Positions 4,020 through 16,614 of a DNA stretch of 21,484 nt are shown here, in pieces. This stretch comes from a virus: positions 1 through 21,484 of the IMG/VR virus record IMGVR_UViG_3300037246_001650. One strand, given 5' to 3'. The translations under genes were made by a program, and so were the position numbers. Under the pieces are notes generated by a model. The model was not told where the DNA came from. It saw only the letters and a list, made by a program, of their open reading frames with translations, and searched no databases. Numbering within the stretch: the stretch's first letter is position 1; each line of letters starts with the position of its first letter.

Positions 4020-4918
4020 CACTCCTCCCTCGGCGGACGCAAAGTCCGCTTCCCGTTTACGTCCGCCAGCCAGGTCCACTTTTCCCCAGCCGGTAGTACC
4101 CCTTCGTCAGCGTCGCCGATCGCAGCGCGGAACAGATTCTTGATCTCAGTAATCCGCGTCTCGTTGTCCTTGCTCGCCGCCTTGAGCTGCTTGTACTGCG
4201 CGTGGAGATCGACGAACTCTCCCGGCAGCGAGATCGACTCCCTGTAAGCGTTCGGGTAGATCCGAGCGAGCGCCTTCGCGGTAGCCGGCGAGGCATCGGG
4301 CAGCGGCGGCGGGCCTTTGTGGAGGACGCGATCCCAAAAGGATCCGCACTCAGGCACCAGCGTCTCTTCGATGAACTTGTCATCTCGCTCCACGTCGCGC
4401 CATTTGAACTCGCTGCCGCAGATCAGGACGGCCACTGAGGCCATCGGGGCGCCCGTGACGGCCATCTGATGCTGTAATTGGATGCCGACGTGCTGCGGGA
4501 CGCCATCGGACCAGCCAGCGCGGTCCTGGGTGTTTTTGACTTCGAGGGGGAGCCGGGGGACACAACCGCCACCGGCAACGTCCGCCTCCTGCCACCCGTC
4601 CAGCGTGCAGAGCATGAAGGGCCACCGCTTCGAGCGTAGGAGTTCCCCCGCGGGTTCGACCGGGCGCCCCACCTCGCCGTCGAACCACCCCAGAATCACC
4701 GGCTCCAGTATGCGCCCCCACTCCATGCGCTCGTCGAATTCGTCCACCGGAGGATCTTCGGAGATCTTGTCGGCGTACACCTCCATCGCGCTCGACCACC
4801 GCGGCCAATCGATGCCCAGCACCCACGGCGACTCACTCGCGCCGATGCCCGTCCGCCGAGCCAGCAGCCACTCGGGACGATTCGTGGAGTCGCAGACGAT
4901 TTCGTAATCGGCGGTCAT
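4019..4918 (-). CDS. YqaJ-type viral recombinase exonuclease (PD-(D/E)XK fold)
   Basis: A 299-aa nuclease predicted to resect double-stranded ends to make 3' tails for RecT. Family features in order are RRTGIGASES (about 21-30), the WGRILEP segment with Glu72, CTLDG with Asp107, LEVKN with Glu126 and Lys128, and QLQHQM at about 147-152. These match the YqaJ/lambda Red alpha catalytic core. The ATG at 4918 overlaps the upstream stop by 4 bases. Length is close to that of other family members. The nuclease plus RecT pair is the usual two-gene phage recombination module. Confidence 0.88.
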   Translation of the reverse strand: MTADYEIVCDSTNRPEWLLARRTGIGASESPWVLGIDWPRWSSAMEVYADKISEDPPVDEFDERMEWGRILEPVILGWFDGEVGRPVEPAGELLRSKRWPFMLCTLDGWQEADVAGGGCVPRLPLEVKNTQDRAGWSDGVPQHVGIQLQHQMAVTGAPMASVAVLICGSEFKWRDVERDDKFIEETLVPECGSFWDRVLHKGPPPLPDASPATAKALARIYPNAYRESISLPGEFVDLHAQYKQLKAASKDNETRITEIKNLFRAAIGDADEGVLPAGEKWTWLADVNGKRTLRPPREE

Positions 4919-5476: not shown

Positions 5477-5631
5477 GATCTCCCCTCCCGCGCGACCCTC
5501 TCCGCGCCTTGGTTATATGTTTCCGGTTTCGGCTTGCGCATGATCAGATAGGTAAAAAGCGAGCCGATACCGACACCGGCTGCGAAGGCTAACCATTGGA
5601 GCACGCCGGGGTCAGGCATCGGGTTTGCCAT
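5473..5631 (-). CDS. Small single-span membrane protein
   Basis: A 52-aa protein with one membrane segment (VLQWLAFAAGVGIGSLFTYLIM) and a basic, polar C-terminus (RKPKPETYNQGAERVAREG). The frame is open to 5763, but that part lies inside the upstream gene. ATGs at 5631 and 5619 are the plausible starts. The second gives an 8-base ATGCCTGA overlap like other junctions here. Neither has a strong ribosome binding site. Inner-membrane location predicted; function unknown. Confidence 0.55.
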   Translation of the reverse strand: MANPMPDPGVLQWLAFAAGVGIGSLFTYLIMRKPKPETYNQGAERVAREGRS

Positions 5632-7970: not shown

Positions 7971-8461
7971 GAGAAACCAACCGATTGAACCGAATCGCAG
8001 CGGAATGCCTCCGCGAGTCAGATGGCGACTGGGAGGCCGCGGCATTGGCAATGCGAAAGCAAATCGACAGCAAGCCGAGACTTCGCACCGAGCTTATGAA
8101 GCCGCTGATCGCGGGCGCAATCTGGGATCGGATCCGTTTCGCAGCGCATGAGGATCGCAAGAAATGTCTCCGGCCCGACGCGGGCGAGGACAACACCGAT
8201 GGGCTTGAGGCGATGGCGCGGCGGACTCTGCTGGACTTCCAGCTCCGGGGCGGCACGCGGCTCGGTGATGCCACGCGGCCCGAGGTCACAGAGGCGGCTG
8301 ACTGGTACGGCACTCTTGCGCGGACGAACGGTGCTAACGCAGCGTGGCTCAAGTCGGTTGCGAGGGCATTGCCCGACGATGAGAAGCTGGTCTCGGACGT
8401 GCTGACCGAAGATCAGGCGCGAAGGCTGCGGACCAGGGCTGAGAAGAGTTCAACCCGATGA
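7967..8461 (+). CDS. Hypothetical protein upstream of the RNA array
   Basis: A 164-aa, mostly helical protein with balanced charge (LNRIAAECLRESDGDWEAAALAMRKQID...). No catalytic motif is seen. Its last three codons and stop lie in the 5' arm of the first hairpin of the RNA array. Translation to the end would therefore meet the array's first stem, which could couple translation to RNA folding. The start shares an ATGA with the previous gene. Confidence 0.65.
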   Translation: MRETNRLNRIAAECLRESDGDWEAAALAMRKQIDSKPRLRTELMKPLIAGAIWDRIRFAAHEDRKKCLRPDAGEDNTDGLEAMARRTLLDFQLRGGTRLGDATRPEVTEAADWYGTLARTNGANAAWLKSVARALPDDEKLVSDVLTEDQARRLRTRAEKSSTR

Positions 8462-8512
8462 GGCGGGCCACCCACGTGATGTCTACCAGGGGCGACGTGC
8501 TCGCTTCGTCGG
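8455..8512 (+). repeat. Array hairpin 1
   Basis: Arms 8455-8468 and 8499-8512 (14 pairs, G-U at 8459/8508, 8462/8505 and 8466/8501). Bulged C8469, closing A8470-U8498, loop 8471-8497. Loop core TGTCTACCA at 8480-8488 reads with T10 and G11. GTTCAA precedes it at 8448-8453. Confidence 0.85.
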
Positions 8513-8523
8513 TCTCGTTTCAA

Positions 8524-8581
8524 CCGATGGCTGGGGCCAGTAGCGTGGTGAAGCCCAGTAGCAGGATGCCCCGGCCGTCGG
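8524..8581 (+). repeat. Array hairpin 2
   Basis: Arms 8524-8537 and 8568-8581 (14 pairs, G-U at 8528/8577 and 8532/8573). Bulged C8538, closing A8539-U8567, loop 8540-8566, core TGAAGCCCA. Linker to hairpin 1 is TCTCGTTTCAA. Confidence 0.88.
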
Positions 8582-8590
8582 AATTTCAAC

Positions 8591-8646
8591 GAGTGGCGCG
8601 GGCCAGTGAGACACTGCCTACCGCGCGAAAAGTGCCCGTGCCGCTC
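8591..8646 (+). repeat. Array hairpin 3
   Basis: Arms 8591-8603 and 8634-8646 (13 pairs, G-U at 8594/8643 and 8598/8639). Bulged C8604, closing A8605-U8633, loop 8606-8632, core TGCCTACCG. Linker AATTTCAAC. An alternative fold (8596-8601 with 8621-8626) is possible. Confidence 0.85.
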
Positions 8647-8654
8647 TCGTTTCA

Positions 8655-8703
8655 AGGCTGGGCCAAACAACTCGCGACGCCCACCTATCCCCTGCCCACG
8701 CCT
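8655..8703 (+). repeat. Array hairpin 4
   Basis: Arms 8655-8663 and 8694-8703 (9 pairs with C8699 unpaired). Bulged C8664, closing A8665-U8693, loop 8666-8692, core CGACGCCCA. This is the shortest stem and the only core starting with C. Confidence 0.78.
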
Positions 8704-8705
8704 AT

Positions 8706-8765
8706 GCACCCGGTCGAGTCCGGTGAGCGCCTGTTACCCAGTAGAGGGCTGCCTCGATCGGGTGC
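8706..8765 (+). repeat. Array hairpin 5
   Basis: Arms 8706-8718 and 8753-8765 (13 pairs, G-U at 8713/8758), a U8719/C8752 mismatch, then C8720-G8751. Bulged C8721, closing G8722-U8750, loop 8723-8749, core TGTTACCCA. Confidence 0.82.
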
Positions 8766-8766
8766 T

Positions 8767-8835
8767 AGCTTTAATCAACCCGCGGACCAAAGTGACCTTG
8801 ACGCCCATCACTGTGGTGTCCGCGGGTTGAAAGCT
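8767..8835 (+). repeat. Array hairpin 6
   Basis: Inner arms 8776-8787 and 8818-8829 are 12 perfect pairs. AGCTTT (8767-8772) and AAAGCT (8830-8835) add 6 more past an AAT bulge. Bulged C8788, closing A8789-U8817, loop 8790-8816, core TGACGCCCA. AGTGA and TCACT inside the loop can pair. Confidence 0.88.
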
Positions 8836-8884
8836 GTTGCGGGCCACACCCAGGGTGCCACCCATCGTCATGGTGCTCGCAGCG
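8835..8884 (+). repeat. Array hairpin 7
   Basis: Arms 8835-8844 and 8875-8884 (10 pairs, G-U at 8835/8884, 8837/8882 and 8842/8877). Bulged C8845, closing A8846-U8874, loop 8847-8873, core TGCCACCCA. It ends just before the ribosome binding site of the IS110-like gene. Confidence 0.8.
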
Positions 8885-8902
8885 CCGGAGGAGGTAGAGC
8901 AA

Positions 8903-9700
8903 ATGTCTAGCGCAGGTTCTAACTCCTCCGGCATCTACAATGGCCTGCTTACCGAACTCAAGGAAACCGTCCGTCGACGGGATGATCTAATCCGGCCGGA
9001 GGTGCGGCTAACGCTTCAGATCAAGTCGATCTGTCGGCGGGTCTGTAGCAGACAATGTCCTGATTTTGATACCGATGCCAAGCGCTATGCCTGGATCAAA
9101 AAAGAAGGCCGACTTCTTTACACAGCAATCATGAAAGGCCAGCAACACGAGATGCTGAGCGTGGGCGCTCCAGCGTGTTTCGTGTTGCTCCAGGTTCGCG
9201 CGCAGATCCACAGCGAGATCCTGCCCGTCGAGCGTAGGCTGAAGGAGCTCGCCCAGAAGCTGCCGGTCTGGGATTGGTGGGATTCGGTCCACGGGCTGGG
9301 CGCGCTTGGGCTGGCAGCGATCGTTGCAGAGACGGGCGATCTCTCGAACTATGCCAACCCCGGCAAAGTCTGGAAGCGCATGGGCGTTGCGGTCATCAAC
9401 GGAGAGCGGCAGAGGAAGAAGAAGGGCGCCGAGGCGCTCGAGCACGGATACTCGCCGCGCCGGCGTAGCACAATCTGGGTTGTCTCGGATAGCCTGCTGA
9501 AGAAGCCCAATGAATATAAAGAGCTGTATGACTGGCGTAAGGCCGAACAGGCAGAGAAGTGGCCGGAGCGCAAGAAGGGCCACCTCCACAACGATGCTCG
9601 GCGCTATGTCGGGAAGCGGCTACTGAAGCACCTCTGGCGGGCTTGGCGCCGTACATGTAGTGACGACCAGATTTGCTCTGCGCCGGGCTCGCCAGAATGA
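8903..9700 (+). CDS. IS110/IS116/IS902-type transposase C-terminal domain protein, domesticated in phage
   Basis: A 265-aa protein from an ATG at 8903 with GGAGGAGGT seven bases upstream. Frames open to a TTG at 8837 run into the hairpin array and are rejected. Residues about 127-245 match the IS110 C-terminal (Transposase_20) domain: VHGLGALGLAAIVAETGDLSNY, WKRMGVAVINGERQ, HGYSPRRRSTIW, RRYVGKRLLKHLWRAW. The N-terminal 120 residues are helical and basic and show no RuvC-like DEDD motif. The conserved Ser-Gly of active IS110 enzymes seems replaced by Asn166-Gly167. No flanking insertion-sequence ends are seen. It probably binds nucleic acid rather than catalysing transposition. The adjacent hairpin array is the obvious candidate partner. 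Confidence 0.75.
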   Translation: MSSAGSNSSGIYNGLLTELKETVRRRDDLIRPEVRLTLQIKSICRRVCSRQCPDFDTDAKRYAWIKKEGRLLYTAIMKGQQHEMLSVGAPACFVLLQVRAQIHSEILPVERRLKELAQKLPVWDWWDSVHGLGALGLAAIVAETGDLSNYANPGKVWKRMGVAVINGERQRKKKGAEALEHGYSPRRRSTIWVVSDSLLKKPNEYKELYDWRKAEQAEKWPERKKGHLHNDARRYVGKRLLKHLWRAWRRTCSDDQICSAPGSPE

Positions 9701-9732: not shown

Positions 9733-9812
9733 CCGTCAGCCAGCGCACCCCACCAACCGCACCTTCCAACCCGCGCTGGCTGGCGGTAGGCGGCGGTGGG
9801 GGGCGCACCACC
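9733..9812 (+). other. Structured intergenic RNA element, possible pseudoknot
   Basis: The 139-base gap between the IS110-like and ASCH-like genes holds a 14-pair stem (9733-9746 with 9773-9786, one U-G pair) with a 26-nt, C- and A-rich loop. CCCCACC in the loop (9748-9754) is complementary to GGTGGGG at 9795-9801, so an H-type pseudoknot can form. It resembles the upstream hairpins in size but lacks the bulged C and the TGNNNMCCA core. AGGAG at 9827-9831 serves the next gene. Confidence 0.55.
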
Positions 9813-9839: not shown

Positions 9840-10259
9840 ATGCCCCTGCTGAGCTTTCAAGAGCAGTTCGTCAAGGCGGTCGAGAACGGCCTGGACCTGC
9901 GCGCGGACCGCCCTCTGCGCCATCCTGGCGTGGAGCCCAAGACGCAGACCATTCGCGCGCCCTGGAAGAATGGCCACAACCCACACCGGGTTGGGGTGAC
10001 CGAAAAGTTTTGGACGAGGGTGAGAACTCCAGAGCGGCGGAAACTCGGGGAGGCAGAGTGTATCGGCGTCTGGCACGTAACGATTGGAGCGTCTGGCATC
10101 TGCCTTAGTAGCGATCATCTCCCTGAGCCGATCGCGCGCACCGGAATTGGTGCGGAGCATGAGGCGCTCTGCGACGGTTTCGAGAATTGGGCAGAGATGC
10201 GCGACTGGTTCGAGAAGAACCACGGCCTGCCGTTCGAGGGGGTGCTGATCCAGTGGTAG
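9840..10259 (+). CDS. ASCH/PUA-like domain protein
   Basis: A 139-aa protein opening with PLLSFQEQFVKAVENG, then KTQTIRAPWKNG at about 35-46, a TPERRKLGEAECIGVWHV segment near 65 and a C-terminal WFEKNHGLPFEGVLIQW. These match small phage ASCH-domain proteins I know (SFKPQF..AVESG, KRQTIR, CRKLGEA, FF..HGLPFEGVLIEW). ASCH is a PUA-related fold linked to RNA binding. The ATG has AGGAG upstream. Lying between the IS110-like gene and a small RNA gene, it might act on RNA. That role is inference. Confidence 0.65.
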   Translation: MPLLSFQEQFVKAVENGLDLRADRPLRHPGVEPKTQTIRAPWKNGHNPHRVGVTEKFWTRVRTPERRKLGEAECIGVWHVTIGASGICLSSDHLPEPIARTGIGAEHEALCDGFENWAEMRDWFEKNHGLPFEGVLIQW

Positions 10260-10266
10260 GCCGCTC

Positions 10267-10294
10267 TTGACCCGTTCCGGCCGTTTGGTAAAAT
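10267..10294 (+). promoter_or_regulatory. Promoter of the small RNA gene
   Basis: TTGACC (10267-10272), a 16-base spacer and TAAAAT (10289-10294). The predicted start, about 10301, lies two bases before the first hairpin of the small RNA. Confidence 0.65.
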
Positions 10295-10300
10295 GCGAAA

Positions 10301-10408
10301 ATGGGGATACGAGTTAACCGGCTCTCTAACATTGATCTGCGCGATTCGTATCCCCAAGATTCGAACGTGCTGGCCCCTGGAGCAGCAATGCTCTGGGGGC
10401 TTTTCTTT
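10301..10408 (+). ncRNA. Small structured RNA (promoter, hairpin, intrinsic terminator)
   Basis: A stand-alone RNA gene of about 108 nt in a region with no credible ORF. The 5' hairpin pairs 10303-10315 with 10343-10355 (13 pairs, two of them G-U) around a 27-nt loop. A short linker (10356-10372) leads to an intrinsic terminator. The loop has the same length as the array loops at 8455-8884 but lacks the bulged C and TGNNNMCCA core, so a shared origin is unproven. Other readings are an attenuator leader for the genes from 10477 on, or an antitermination signal like the put RNA of HK022. It is not a tRNA. Confidence 0.7.
10373..10408 (+). terminator. Intrinsic terminator with GCAA tetraloop
   Basis: Arms 10373-10384 and 10389-10400 give 12 pairs (two G-U) capped by a GCAA tetraloop, followed by TTTTCTTT. 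It ends the small RNA and probably also the operon running from 7406. Confidence 0.85.
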
Positions 10409-10476
10409 GTCCGCCGCTGCCTGGAAGGACAGGCTTCGCGCACCTAGTAGACCAATGAGGTAACCCGCTAAAAGAC

Positions 10477-10836
10477 ATGACGAATCGCACTGGGAAACGC
10501 GAACGAGAGGCTAGAAGCCGTTACAAGCGGCCGTGGGTGGAGGCACGGTTGCAAGACGGCACGGCGCTGCCGGCGTTGAAGCTCGGTCGCAAGAAGGCTC
10601 GGGCATTCCGAGCCATGTCTACCCGGCGCGTGGCGATGGCTACGTGGTCCTTTCTCTACGAAGGAAGTGGCCCTCCCTCGTACATGTTGGCCGCACCGGT
10701 GGCCGAGGTCGAAAGTCGCGGAAAAACAGACGTATGTGCGGCAGACGTATCTGAGCAGGTATCAAGCCCTGCCGGCGGACAATCCGATGTGAGGGGGCCG
10801 GGATCGCGTTCTCGGCTCCCTCTAATAGGAGATTAA
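10477..10836 (+). CDS. Hypothetical basic protein
   Basis: A 119-aa protein with an Arg/Lys-rich N-terminus (TNRTGKREREARSRYKRPWVEARLQDG). GAGGT lies about 14 bases before the ATG, farther than usual. The C-terminal third is low in complexity (Ser, Gly, Pro, Arg). A competing frame covers 10533-10754. It lies just after the terminator and before a gene with a strong ribosome binding site. No family is recognised; coding status is moderately supported. Confidence 0.45.
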   Translation: MTNRTGKREREARSRYKRPWVEARLQDGTALPALKLGRKKARAFRAMSTRRVAMATWSFLYEGSGPPSYMLAAPVAEVESRGKTDVCAADVSEQVSSPAGGQSDVRGPGSRSRLPLIGD

Positions 10837-11095: not shown

Positions 11096-11134
11096 ATCGG
11101 CGGGCCCTGAGTTTTGCGCCTGGGGGGGCGCTCG

Positions 11135-11992
11135 ATGGCAACCGCACGGAAGCCCTTCGTTAGGCTTGAGACCTCGCTCCACCGCGAGCCGTGGTCTCGG
11201 GACGAGAAGATGACGCTCTGTGAGTTGATGATGTTCCTTGGGGACCGCTGGGCTCGCGACCGGCTCACCGCAGATGAGGCGTGCCGCGCGATCCTGACTC
11301 GGCATCAACTTGCGGCGATTACGGGTCGAAGTCAACTCGCGTCCGCGAGGCGTTCACTACGGGCGCTCTCTGAACGCGTTTCGATTTCAATCGAAGTTCA
11401 AGGTGAGTTCACCTCGATCTTTTGGCCTAAGTTCGCGAAAACACAAGAGCTAGAATCCCGCGGCCGGGAATCGCAGGGCCCGAGCAAAGCCCGACGAAAG
11501 CCCGAATCTGCTCCTGCTCCCTCTCCTGCTCCTGCTAAACCCCAAGAGTCGCAACCGCTTCGCGGTTCGACGGGGGGTGATGCTGATTCCCCTCAGGACC
11601 CTGAACCACCGAAGCCCGCGGTGAAGGTCCAGCCCAAAGCCACCGATGCCACCCTCCGGCTCGTCGCCACGATTCTGAAGTCGATGCCGGGCTCGGACGT
11701 CCCGGTGAGCGACCCCAAGCGATTCGAAAAGTGGGCTCTGACCCTCGACCGCCTCCAACGCCTCGACAACGATGGCAAGTGGACCTGGGGGGAGATCAAC
11801 TCGGTGATCACGTGGCTCCCGACCCACAAGCGCCCAGACTTCTCGTGGGGGCTGGTCGTCCGATCAGCCTCGAACTTCCGCAAACACTTCCCGCGGATGA
11901 TCGCCGAGATGAAGTCAGCGCCCGGCTCGAAGGGGCCGCGGATGGGCTGGGGGGAGCCTGAGGATGAGAGTACGCAGGAGGTGGTGTTTTGA
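11135..11992 (+). CDS. Probable phage replication protein (primosome/replisome-organiser type)
   Basis: A 285-aa protein. The N-terminal ~100 residues (ARKPFVRLETSLHREPWSRDEK, TRHQLAAITGRSQLASARRSLRAL) look like a winged-helix DNA-binding module. A Pro/Ala/Ser-rich linker (about 120-165) leads to a helical C-terminal domain (SDPKRFEKWALTLDRL, WSWGLVVRS-type segment, FRKHFPRM). This two-domain plan and the nearby DnaC-like loader recall lambda O- or DnaD-like origin proteins. The ATG at 11135 follows a G-rich tract. The CT repeats in the linker DNA (11515-11540) encode the Ala-Pro run. The family is inferred, not recognised with certainty. Confidence 0.6.
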   Translation: MATARKPFVRLETSLHREPWSRDEKMTLCELMMFLGDRWARDRLTADEACRAILTRHQLAAITGRSQLASARRSLRALSERVSISIEVQGEFTSIFWPKFAKTQELESRGRESQGPSKARRKPESAPAPSPAPAKPQESQPLRGSTGGDADSPQDPEPPKPAVKVQPKATDATLRLVATILKSMPGSDVPVSDPKRFEKWALTLDRLQRLDNDGKWTWGEINSVITWLPTHKRPDFSWGLVVRSASNFRKHFPRMIAEMKSAPGSKGPRMGWGEPEDESTQEVVF

Positions 11993-12729: not shown

Positions 12730-13097
12730 AGAGAATTCTCGTCTGTGGTAGTCGGCACTTCGATGACAGCGCAAGAATGGAGTTACACCTAATTGATCAC
12801 GGCTGCATCCGTGAAGACGTGCTTCTGATACACGGGGCGTGTGGTGGCGCCGACACCATTGCTGACACTATCGCGAAACGTCTTGGGTGGTGGGTCGTGT
12901 CGTGCCCAGCAGATTGGAGCATTGGGCGGGGCGCCGGCCCGAATCGCAACCAAGCGATGTTGGATGAATTCCACCCCGAACAAGTATTGGCCTTTCCGGT
13001 TGGCGAATCCAAGGGCACTCGGGACATGATCCGTCGCGCAGTGGCTGCCAAAATCCCATGCATCACCTACGAATCCGCCCAGGATCCCACCCGATGA
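12726..13097 (+). CDS. DUF2493/YspA-like SLOG-superfamily protein
   Basis: A 123-aa Rossmann-like protein with KRILVCGSRHFDD at the N-terminus, IHGACGGADTIADTIAKRLGW in the middle and GAGPNRNQAMLDEFHPEQVLAFP, the usual DUF2493 pattern. SLOG proteins bind nucleotides or their derivatives; the substrate here is unknown. The start is a TTG in a TTGA overlap with the methyltransferase stop. It is preceded by the same GCAGGAGGTG site as that gene. An ATGA overlap couples it to the ATPase gene. Confidence 0.82.
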   Translation: MKRILVCGSRHFDDSARMELHLIDHGCIREDVLLIHGACGGADTIADTIAKRLGWWVVSCPADWSIGRGAGPNRNQAMLDEFHPEQVLAFPVGESKGTRDMIRRAVAAKIPCITYESAQDPTR

Positions 13098-13675
13098 CCG
13101 AGTGGGCATCACATATCGGGATTCCGAAGATATGCCGCGACACGGCGATCTCGGTGGCTCTCGTGCCGGATCTCGCGAAGACGTGGGCCGAAAAGCTCCC
13201 TGAATCGGCGCGCGTGGCCGGAGGGATGCTGCTGGCCGGCCCCCCGGGGAGCGGGAAGAGCTTCACGGCTGCCTGGATGCTGCTCGAGCTCTACCGGAGA
13301 TGCTGGTTCACAGCCGATGGCCAGCCGGTCGGGCCTTGGGAGCGCATCGGCGCCCGGTTCATCCGATGCCACGATGTCACCCGCGCGGCCGTGATGAAGG
13401 ACTTCGCGCAGATCCGGACGTGGTGGGAGCCTGACGTCCTCGTGCTCGATGACTGGCCCGACGGTCTCCCGGCGTGGCTTGTGCTTGAACTGACCGACCT
13501 GCTCGACCGCCGCCACGTCGAGCAGCGATTCACGATCGTCACGACCAACATCCTCTGCGGCAAGCCGGACGAAACCGACACCTTCGAAACGAACTATTCG
13601 CGGGCTGCGTCTCGGCTCTTGGACGCCCGCGGGCCGGGGCTCGTGGTCTTGAATCGAGGGGATTTGAGGAGGTGA
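13094..13675 (+). CDS. DnaC-like AAA+ helicase loader
   Basis: A 193-aa P-loop ATPase. Walker A is GPPGSGKS (49-56), Walker B VLVLDDW (115-121), sensor I-like TTN (150-152), and a C-terminal SRL (173-175) has the expected arginine. The small size and motif spacing fit DnaC/DnaI-type loaders, which place the host replicative helicase on phage DNA. It follows the probable origin-binding protein in the same operon, which supports this. The ATG at 13094 overlaps the upstream stop by 4 bases; the frame is open further upstream, but inside the SLOG gene. Confidence 0.82.
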   Translation: MTEWASHIGIPKICRDTAISVALVPDLAKTWAEKLPESARVAGGMLLAGPPGSGKSFTAAWMLLELYRRCWFTADGQPVGPWERIGARFIRCHDVTRAAVMKDFAQIRTWWEPDVLVLDDWPDGLPAWLVLELTDLLDRRHVEQRFTIVTTNILCGKPDETDTFETNYSRAASRLLDARGPGLVVLNRGDLRR

Positions 13676-16396: not shown

Positions 16397-16614
16397 TCGA
16401 GTGCTCTCGCGAACTACTGAGTGATGGCGTCGATCTCGAAGCGATCTACATGTGCCTAGCTGCTCCTGCAATCGCTAGGCAATTCGACCACGAGATGGAA
16501 ATCATGGGTCAGCATATCGACGCTCGTTATCGCCATGCTGCGCGCCGCAGAGAGGTTCAATCAGTGTTCGCGCGCAGGAAGGCGGAGCGCCTTCGATTGG
16601 TGGAAGCGGCATGA
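16393..16614 (+). CDS. Hypothetical small helical protein between terminase genes
   Basis: A 73-aa protein (IECSRELLSDGVDLEAIYMCLAAPAIARQFDHEMEIM...) with a basic C-terminal helix. The best start is a TTG at 16393 in a TTGA overlap with the previous stop, with AGGAG nine bases upstream. It ends in an ATGA overlap with the large terminase. It could be a helper of the small subunit; no family recognised. Confidence 0.58.
   Translation: MIECSRELLSDGVDLEAIYMCLAAPAIARQFDHEMEIMGQHIDARYRHAARRREVQSVFARRKAERLRLVEAA

Follow-up and report, generated by a model that had tools for sequence, protein, structure and literature searches.

We find that an intergenic gap in the early region of a phage genome holds a sigma-70-type promoter, a hairpin that begins at the second base of the predicted transcript, and a strong intrinsic terminator. 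With a little better than even confidence, we read this unit from its sequence as an ordinary stand-alone phage small-RNA (sRNA) gene whose RNA would be about 105 nt long. If expressed, it would be an orphan sRNA, encoded in the early region of a phage that is uncultured and that also carries a TIGR-Tas system. Throughout, the window is the whole stretch of DNA that was analyzed, namely all 21,484 bases of an IMG/VR virus record; this record may cover only part of a larger genome.

Position and anatomy of the unit

Most genes before about 7.3 kb lie on the minus strand, and from about 7.4 kb a plus-strand early region runs via the replication genes to the terminase at 16611. The genes of this region that surround or follow the unit are:

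9840–10259, + strand: phrog_8581 gene, on the same strand and upstream of the sRNA unit
10477–10836, + strand: small basic-protein gene, downstream of the sRNA unit
11114–11992, + strand: DnaD-like replication gene
13058–13675, + strand: DnaC-like replication gene

The unit occupies a true intergenic gap between the first two of these genes. The upstream gene, for which protein queries returned no loci, ends at 10259, which is 8 nt 5′ of the −35 element, and the same-strand downstream genes begin 70 nt past the terminator. The gap contains the following elements:

10267–10294, + strand: sigma-70-type promoter, TTGACC-N16-TAAAAT with an extended −10 TG, from the sequence
10301–10408, + strand: predicted non-coding RNA of about 105 nt, starting at A10301 and ending in the U tract, as inferred from the promoter, fold, and terminator hairpin
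10302–10356, + strand: 5′ hairpin with 14 pairs and a loop of 27 nt, from fold prediction
10372–10401, + strand: intrinsic terminator hairpin of 13 pairs with a GCAA tetraloop, followed by TTTCTTTG

The −35 element (TTGACC, 10267–10272) is separated by a 16-nt spacer from the −10 element (TAAAAT, 10289–10294), and at the level of sequence the promoter matches the consensus at 10 of 12 positions in addition to its extended −10 TG. The predicted start, A10301, is the seventh base past the −10, and the 5′ hairpin begins at predicted +2, such that promoter spacing, start site, and hairpin onset all coincide. The arms of this hairpin are TGGGGATACGAGTT and GATTCGTATCCCCA, it folds alone at −24.3 kcal/mol, and in the minimum-energy fold a weak helix forms inside its loop, capped by the 9-nt apical loop UCUAACAUU. 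A 15-nt linker then leads to the terminator stem. The terminator (−24.4 kcal/mol, with the tail TTTTCTTTG) ranks strongest among 12 terminator-like sites in 11 kb; a strong terminator with a U-rich tail is usual for phage sRNA genes. The RNA taken from 10301 to 10410 folds at −50.4 kcal/mol (z = −6.1), and none of 200 shuffles was equally stable.

An initial annotation of this DNA had described a self-contained small RNA gene, and as far as the anatomy of promoter, 5′ hairpin, and terminator goes, that description is well supported. At the level of sequence, its promoter and its predicted start at about 10301 are confirmed, as is its strong, GCAA-capped terminator with a T tract. The hairpin that it placed just past the start is real, with 14 pairs, two of them G·U, and not the 13 that it counted. 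Two of the roles that it offered for the RNA, as a trans-acting partner of the nearby array or as a put-like signal, are unsupported, for reasons given below; the third, an attenuator, keeps some probability.

From this anatomy we infer transcription, RNA stability, function, and target as follows. The host sigma-70-type polymerase would initiate at about 10301, and the nascent RNA would immediately form the 5′ stem-loop, so that its 5′ end would be buried in the stem and would be expected to resist 5′-end-dependent decay. Transcription would stop near 10407, at the GCAA-capped terminator, and would yield a stable transcript about 105 nt in length, in which 15 nt of single-stranded linker join two hairpins and one loop is exposed. 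Such an RNA would most likely act in trans, by base-pairing of its loop or linker to an RNA of the host or the phage. The terminator at 10372–10401 may also halt transcription arriving from the upstream early genes.

The arrangement compared with chance, and searches for relatives

We scanned for units in which a promoter matching at 8 or more of 12 positions precedes a hairpin of at least 11 pairs with a loop of 20–40, no more than about 20 nt past the end of the −10, and in which a terminator follows within 60 nt. The window gave one match, the unit at 10267–10401. No such unit appeared on either strand when the window was shuffled 740 times with its dinucleotide content preserved, despite about nine hairpins of at least 11 pairs in each shuffled window, and so the combination is not a chance arrangement, a result that is tempered by the fact that the scan criteria were written after the unit had been seen. 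Promoter-like matches taken alone show about a twofold excess in the region (7, compared with 3.4 by chance). Applied to both strands of 85 related viral loci, the same scan returned no comparable unit.

The initial annotation had also proposed a search for homologues, and this came back empty in phage, plasmid, and viral collections. Blastn found no homologue of the RNA in phages and plasmids, the exact-stem pattern was absent across 2.9 million viral contigs, and a pattern scan of genome contigs gave chance matches only. Because no RNA homologue was found, neither covariation nor conservation backs the fold. The Rfam (release 15) covariance models gave nothing at gathering scores, with best E values of 4.6–8.4 that are at chance level. 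Within the window, no phage-internal antisense target for the loop stood above shuffled loops: the best pairing of the loop with the window's phage transcripts was −33.2, and 30 shuffled loops gave a mean of −29.8 (sd 1.85, minimum −34.2). We also considered a DNA operator and rejected it, as its half-site, TGGGGATACGA, recurs no more than chance.

The neighboring TIGR-Tas system

Stem-loop TIGR arrays linked to TasA have been described by Faure et al. 2025 (PMC12045711), and the window carries such a system upstream of the unit:

8455–9696, + strand: TIGR stem-loop array of eight guide-type hairpins with 30-nt loops (context, outside the sRNA)
8837–9700, + strand: TasA-type protein (nuclease-less Nop/Tnp20) of the TIGR system, from family and structure matches

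The protein at 8837–9700 matches NCBIfam NF052498 TIGR_Tas_endo (E 1e-27; 97.5 bits, just under the cut-off of 100) better than it matches IS110. It also matches PDB 9mty (E 6e-28, profile A2), and it has no recognized nuclease domain. The array hairpins, at 8455, 8524, 8591, ~8656, 8706, 8775, ~8836, and 9633, share the loop form CA-N9-YG-N4-CCA-N9-Y (8455–8883 and 9633–9696), and the last of them, 9633–9696, overlaps the end of the TasA frame. Just 3′ of TasA, at 9733–9786, there is a further 14-pair hairpin (one G·U) with a 26-nt loop, ACCCCACCAACCGCACCTTCCAACCC, which is possibly a degenerate guide with a shortened core.

A profile scan yielded 78 related viral TasA loci. In these loci and two annotated phages, there are 224 plus-strand hairpins with 30-nt loops, about 15-fold over neighboring loop lengths, and they show the same CA-N9-YG-N4-CCA-N9-Y form as in the window. 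Exact 30-nt loops are strongly enriched opposite the TasA strand as well (168, in L014–L091), which suggests either guide arrays both ways round or palindromic units that are hairpin-like on both strands. In a related Microcystis phage, a dual-repeat array adjoins the Tas gene.

Could the hairpin at 10302–10356 then be a stray tigRNA of the adjacent system, under a promoter and terminator of its own? We give this scarcely any probability. The unit does lie 0.6 kb 3′ of the last array hairpin, and its hairpin is near guide size, with a 14-pair stem and a 27-nt loop. However, a loop length of 27 is at background in the TasA loci, where 30 is dominant. The sRNA loop scores 4 of 8 for the guide motif even with a best-placed 3-nt gap, a score that 48% of shuffled loops equal, compared with 7–8 for the window's eight guides. 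In addition, none of the 78 viral loci has a comparable unit beside TasA. A TIGR guide (PMC12045711) and the hairpin are alike in their palindromic stem, similar loop size, and shared genomic neighborhood, but the guide has a 30-nt loop in which box C/D-like motifs flank two spacers of 9 nt, features that the hairpin lacks, and unlike the TIGR array units, the unit has its own promoter and terminator. On these comparisons, the hairpin is almost certainly not a TIGR guide.

The initial annotation was correct that the hairpin lacks the array core. It had also called the loop "again" 27 nt, which holds for the sRNA hairpin but not for the array, whose loops are 30 nt to the closing pair. Its suggestion of a trans-acting RNA of the same system is not supported, since the loop is without the guide motif and the unit is absent from homologous TasA loci. 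None of the window's TIGR spacers matches the sRNA or anywhere else in the window at 16/18 or better. The unit is of interest mainly as a clean negative for the guide reading: a hairpin close to a TIGR array and driven by a promoter need not be a guide, and the 30-nt-loop consensus from 224 hairpins is a simple test that separates the two.

A conserved module downstream of the unit

Beyond the terminator, a separate feature begins:

10415–10836, + strand: downstream module of a leader hairpin, TAGTA...ATGAGGTAACCCGCTAAAA, and the basic protein MTNRTGKREREARSRYKR (context)

Six viral contigs carry further copies of the module, with different genes around it (L002, L003, L004/L093, L007, L095, and L096). 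Its protein starts MTNRTGKREREARxR and belongs to no known family, and because the differences in the first codons are mostly synonymous, the frame is probably coding. The leader hairpin shows compensatory changes at two pairs. About 20 nt near the end of the gene (GCCGTACCGGTGGCCGATA) are kept in L007 in a different reading frame, and in L095 (2590–2990) an HNH-type endonuclease frame is inserted in the leader, separating TAGTAGGC from GAGGTAACCCGC. No other copy of the module is preceded by a hairpin-terminator unit (by scan of L092–L096 and by eye), and therefore the sRNA unit and the module are independent features.

Other explanations for the unit

Two more features within the unit bear on how it could be read:

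10301–10447, + strand: 48-codon ATG frame from predicted +1, leaderless if translated; no Shine-Dalgarno sequence and no relative found
10321–10331, + strand: boxA-like GCTCTCTAACA in the hairpin loop, matching 10/11 of the rrn-type GCTCTTTAACA; a weak lead, chosen post hoc

If the upstream early operon simply ends here, the terminator would close it, the promoter-like sequence would be incidental, and the hairpin would be a 3′-UTR structure, possibly of a processed 3′-end RNA. We consider this improbable. The same-strand upstream gene does stop just short of the −35, and the promoter-like matches by themselves are only about twofold over chance, but the promoter distance puts +1 exactly at the hairpin, an extended −10 is present, and the joint promoter-hairpin-terminator arrangement was never seen in shuffles. 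A leaderless mRNA, in which the ATG at +1 begins a 48-aa protein, strikes us as highly improbable. It draws on the coincidence of the ATG with predicted +1 and on 48 open codons, and to that extent the earlier statement that the region has no credible ORF needs a qualification. Against translation, the frame has no Shine-Dalgarno sequence and no relative in phages or protein families, it would have to cross the 14-pair stem and the strong terminator, and by our estimate a 48-codon open frame is about a 1-in-10 event at this base composition.

The unit could also act in cis as a leader with a terminator barrier, where RNA begun at 10301 and RNA arriving from the upstream early genes would both stop at 10401 until antitermination admits polymerase to the basic-protein and replication genes, with the hairpin serving as regulatory receptor. 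This is unlikely in our estimation, with evidence on both sides. The distance to the same-strand genes past the terminator is compatible with a barrier, the downstream gene has a short arginine-rich N-terminus (KREREARxR) and a conserved structured leader, a boxA-like sequence lies within the hairpin loop, and the unit is a singleton, which leaves a regulatory leader some probability. However, the minimum-energy folds of 10301–10408 and 10301–10476 show the terminator only, with no alternative pairing that would break it, such as the mutually exclusive antiterminator fold of an attenuator, and the conserved module does without the hairpin-terminator unit in six other viral contigs. The TGKREREAR stretch of the downstream protein is reminiscent of N-type antiterminators, but the protein has no family match.

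The rrn-type boxA sequence, GCTCTTTAACA, has its best site in the window at 10321–10331, a site that was picked post hoc; matches with at most two mismatches number 7, compared with 2.8 expected, and a scan for the phage-type boxA CGCTCTTWA was at chance level. GCTCTCTAACA is like boxA/nut and rrn leader signals in being one base off a boxA-type sequence, but it differs from them in being partly buried in a hairpin, with no linked boxB, an intrinsic terminator straight after it, and weak single-match statistics. A phage RNA whose loop presents this sequence might titrate host NusB/S10 or, with the downstream arginine-rich protein, gate polymerase entry into the replication operon, a proposal that we regard as very doubtful. 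The put-like antitermination signal suggested earlier is rejected on anatomy. The HK022 put element is about 70 nt long and consists of two adjacent stem-loops that promote read-through, and it suppresses terminators via the polymerase beta-prime zinc-binding domain (PMC9378689). Like put, the unit places a pair of stem-loops close to the beginning of a phage early transcript, but the put stems are adjacent, whereas a 15-nt linker separates those of the unit, the second of which is an intrinsic terminator.

Relation to known phage sRNAs

The reading as an sRNA gene has precedents, since phage-encoded sRNAs of similar size are known, including PreS (~88 nt), OOP (77 nt), and sar (68/69 nt) (PMC12197685). 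Lambda PreS and OOP, P22 sar, and the prophage anti-sRNAs (PMC12197685) resemble the unit in that each is short, runs from a promoter to a U-tailed intrinsic terminator within the early region of a phage, and falls in the size range of 70–110 nt. They have no sequence relationship to the predicted 10301–10408 RNA, and OOP is antisense to its neighbor, whereas the unit is sense to its neighbors.

In L003, one of the contigs that carry the downstream module, promoter-like sites at two places are followed by a long-stem RNA ending in a T run, at 4536–4720 (stem AGCCCTTTAGTTTGGGTGC/GCATCCAAACTAAGGGGCT) and at 5480–5625 (stem AACGACCTGTTGA/TCAACAGGTCGTT). Judging by this layout, both are possible further phage sRNA genes.
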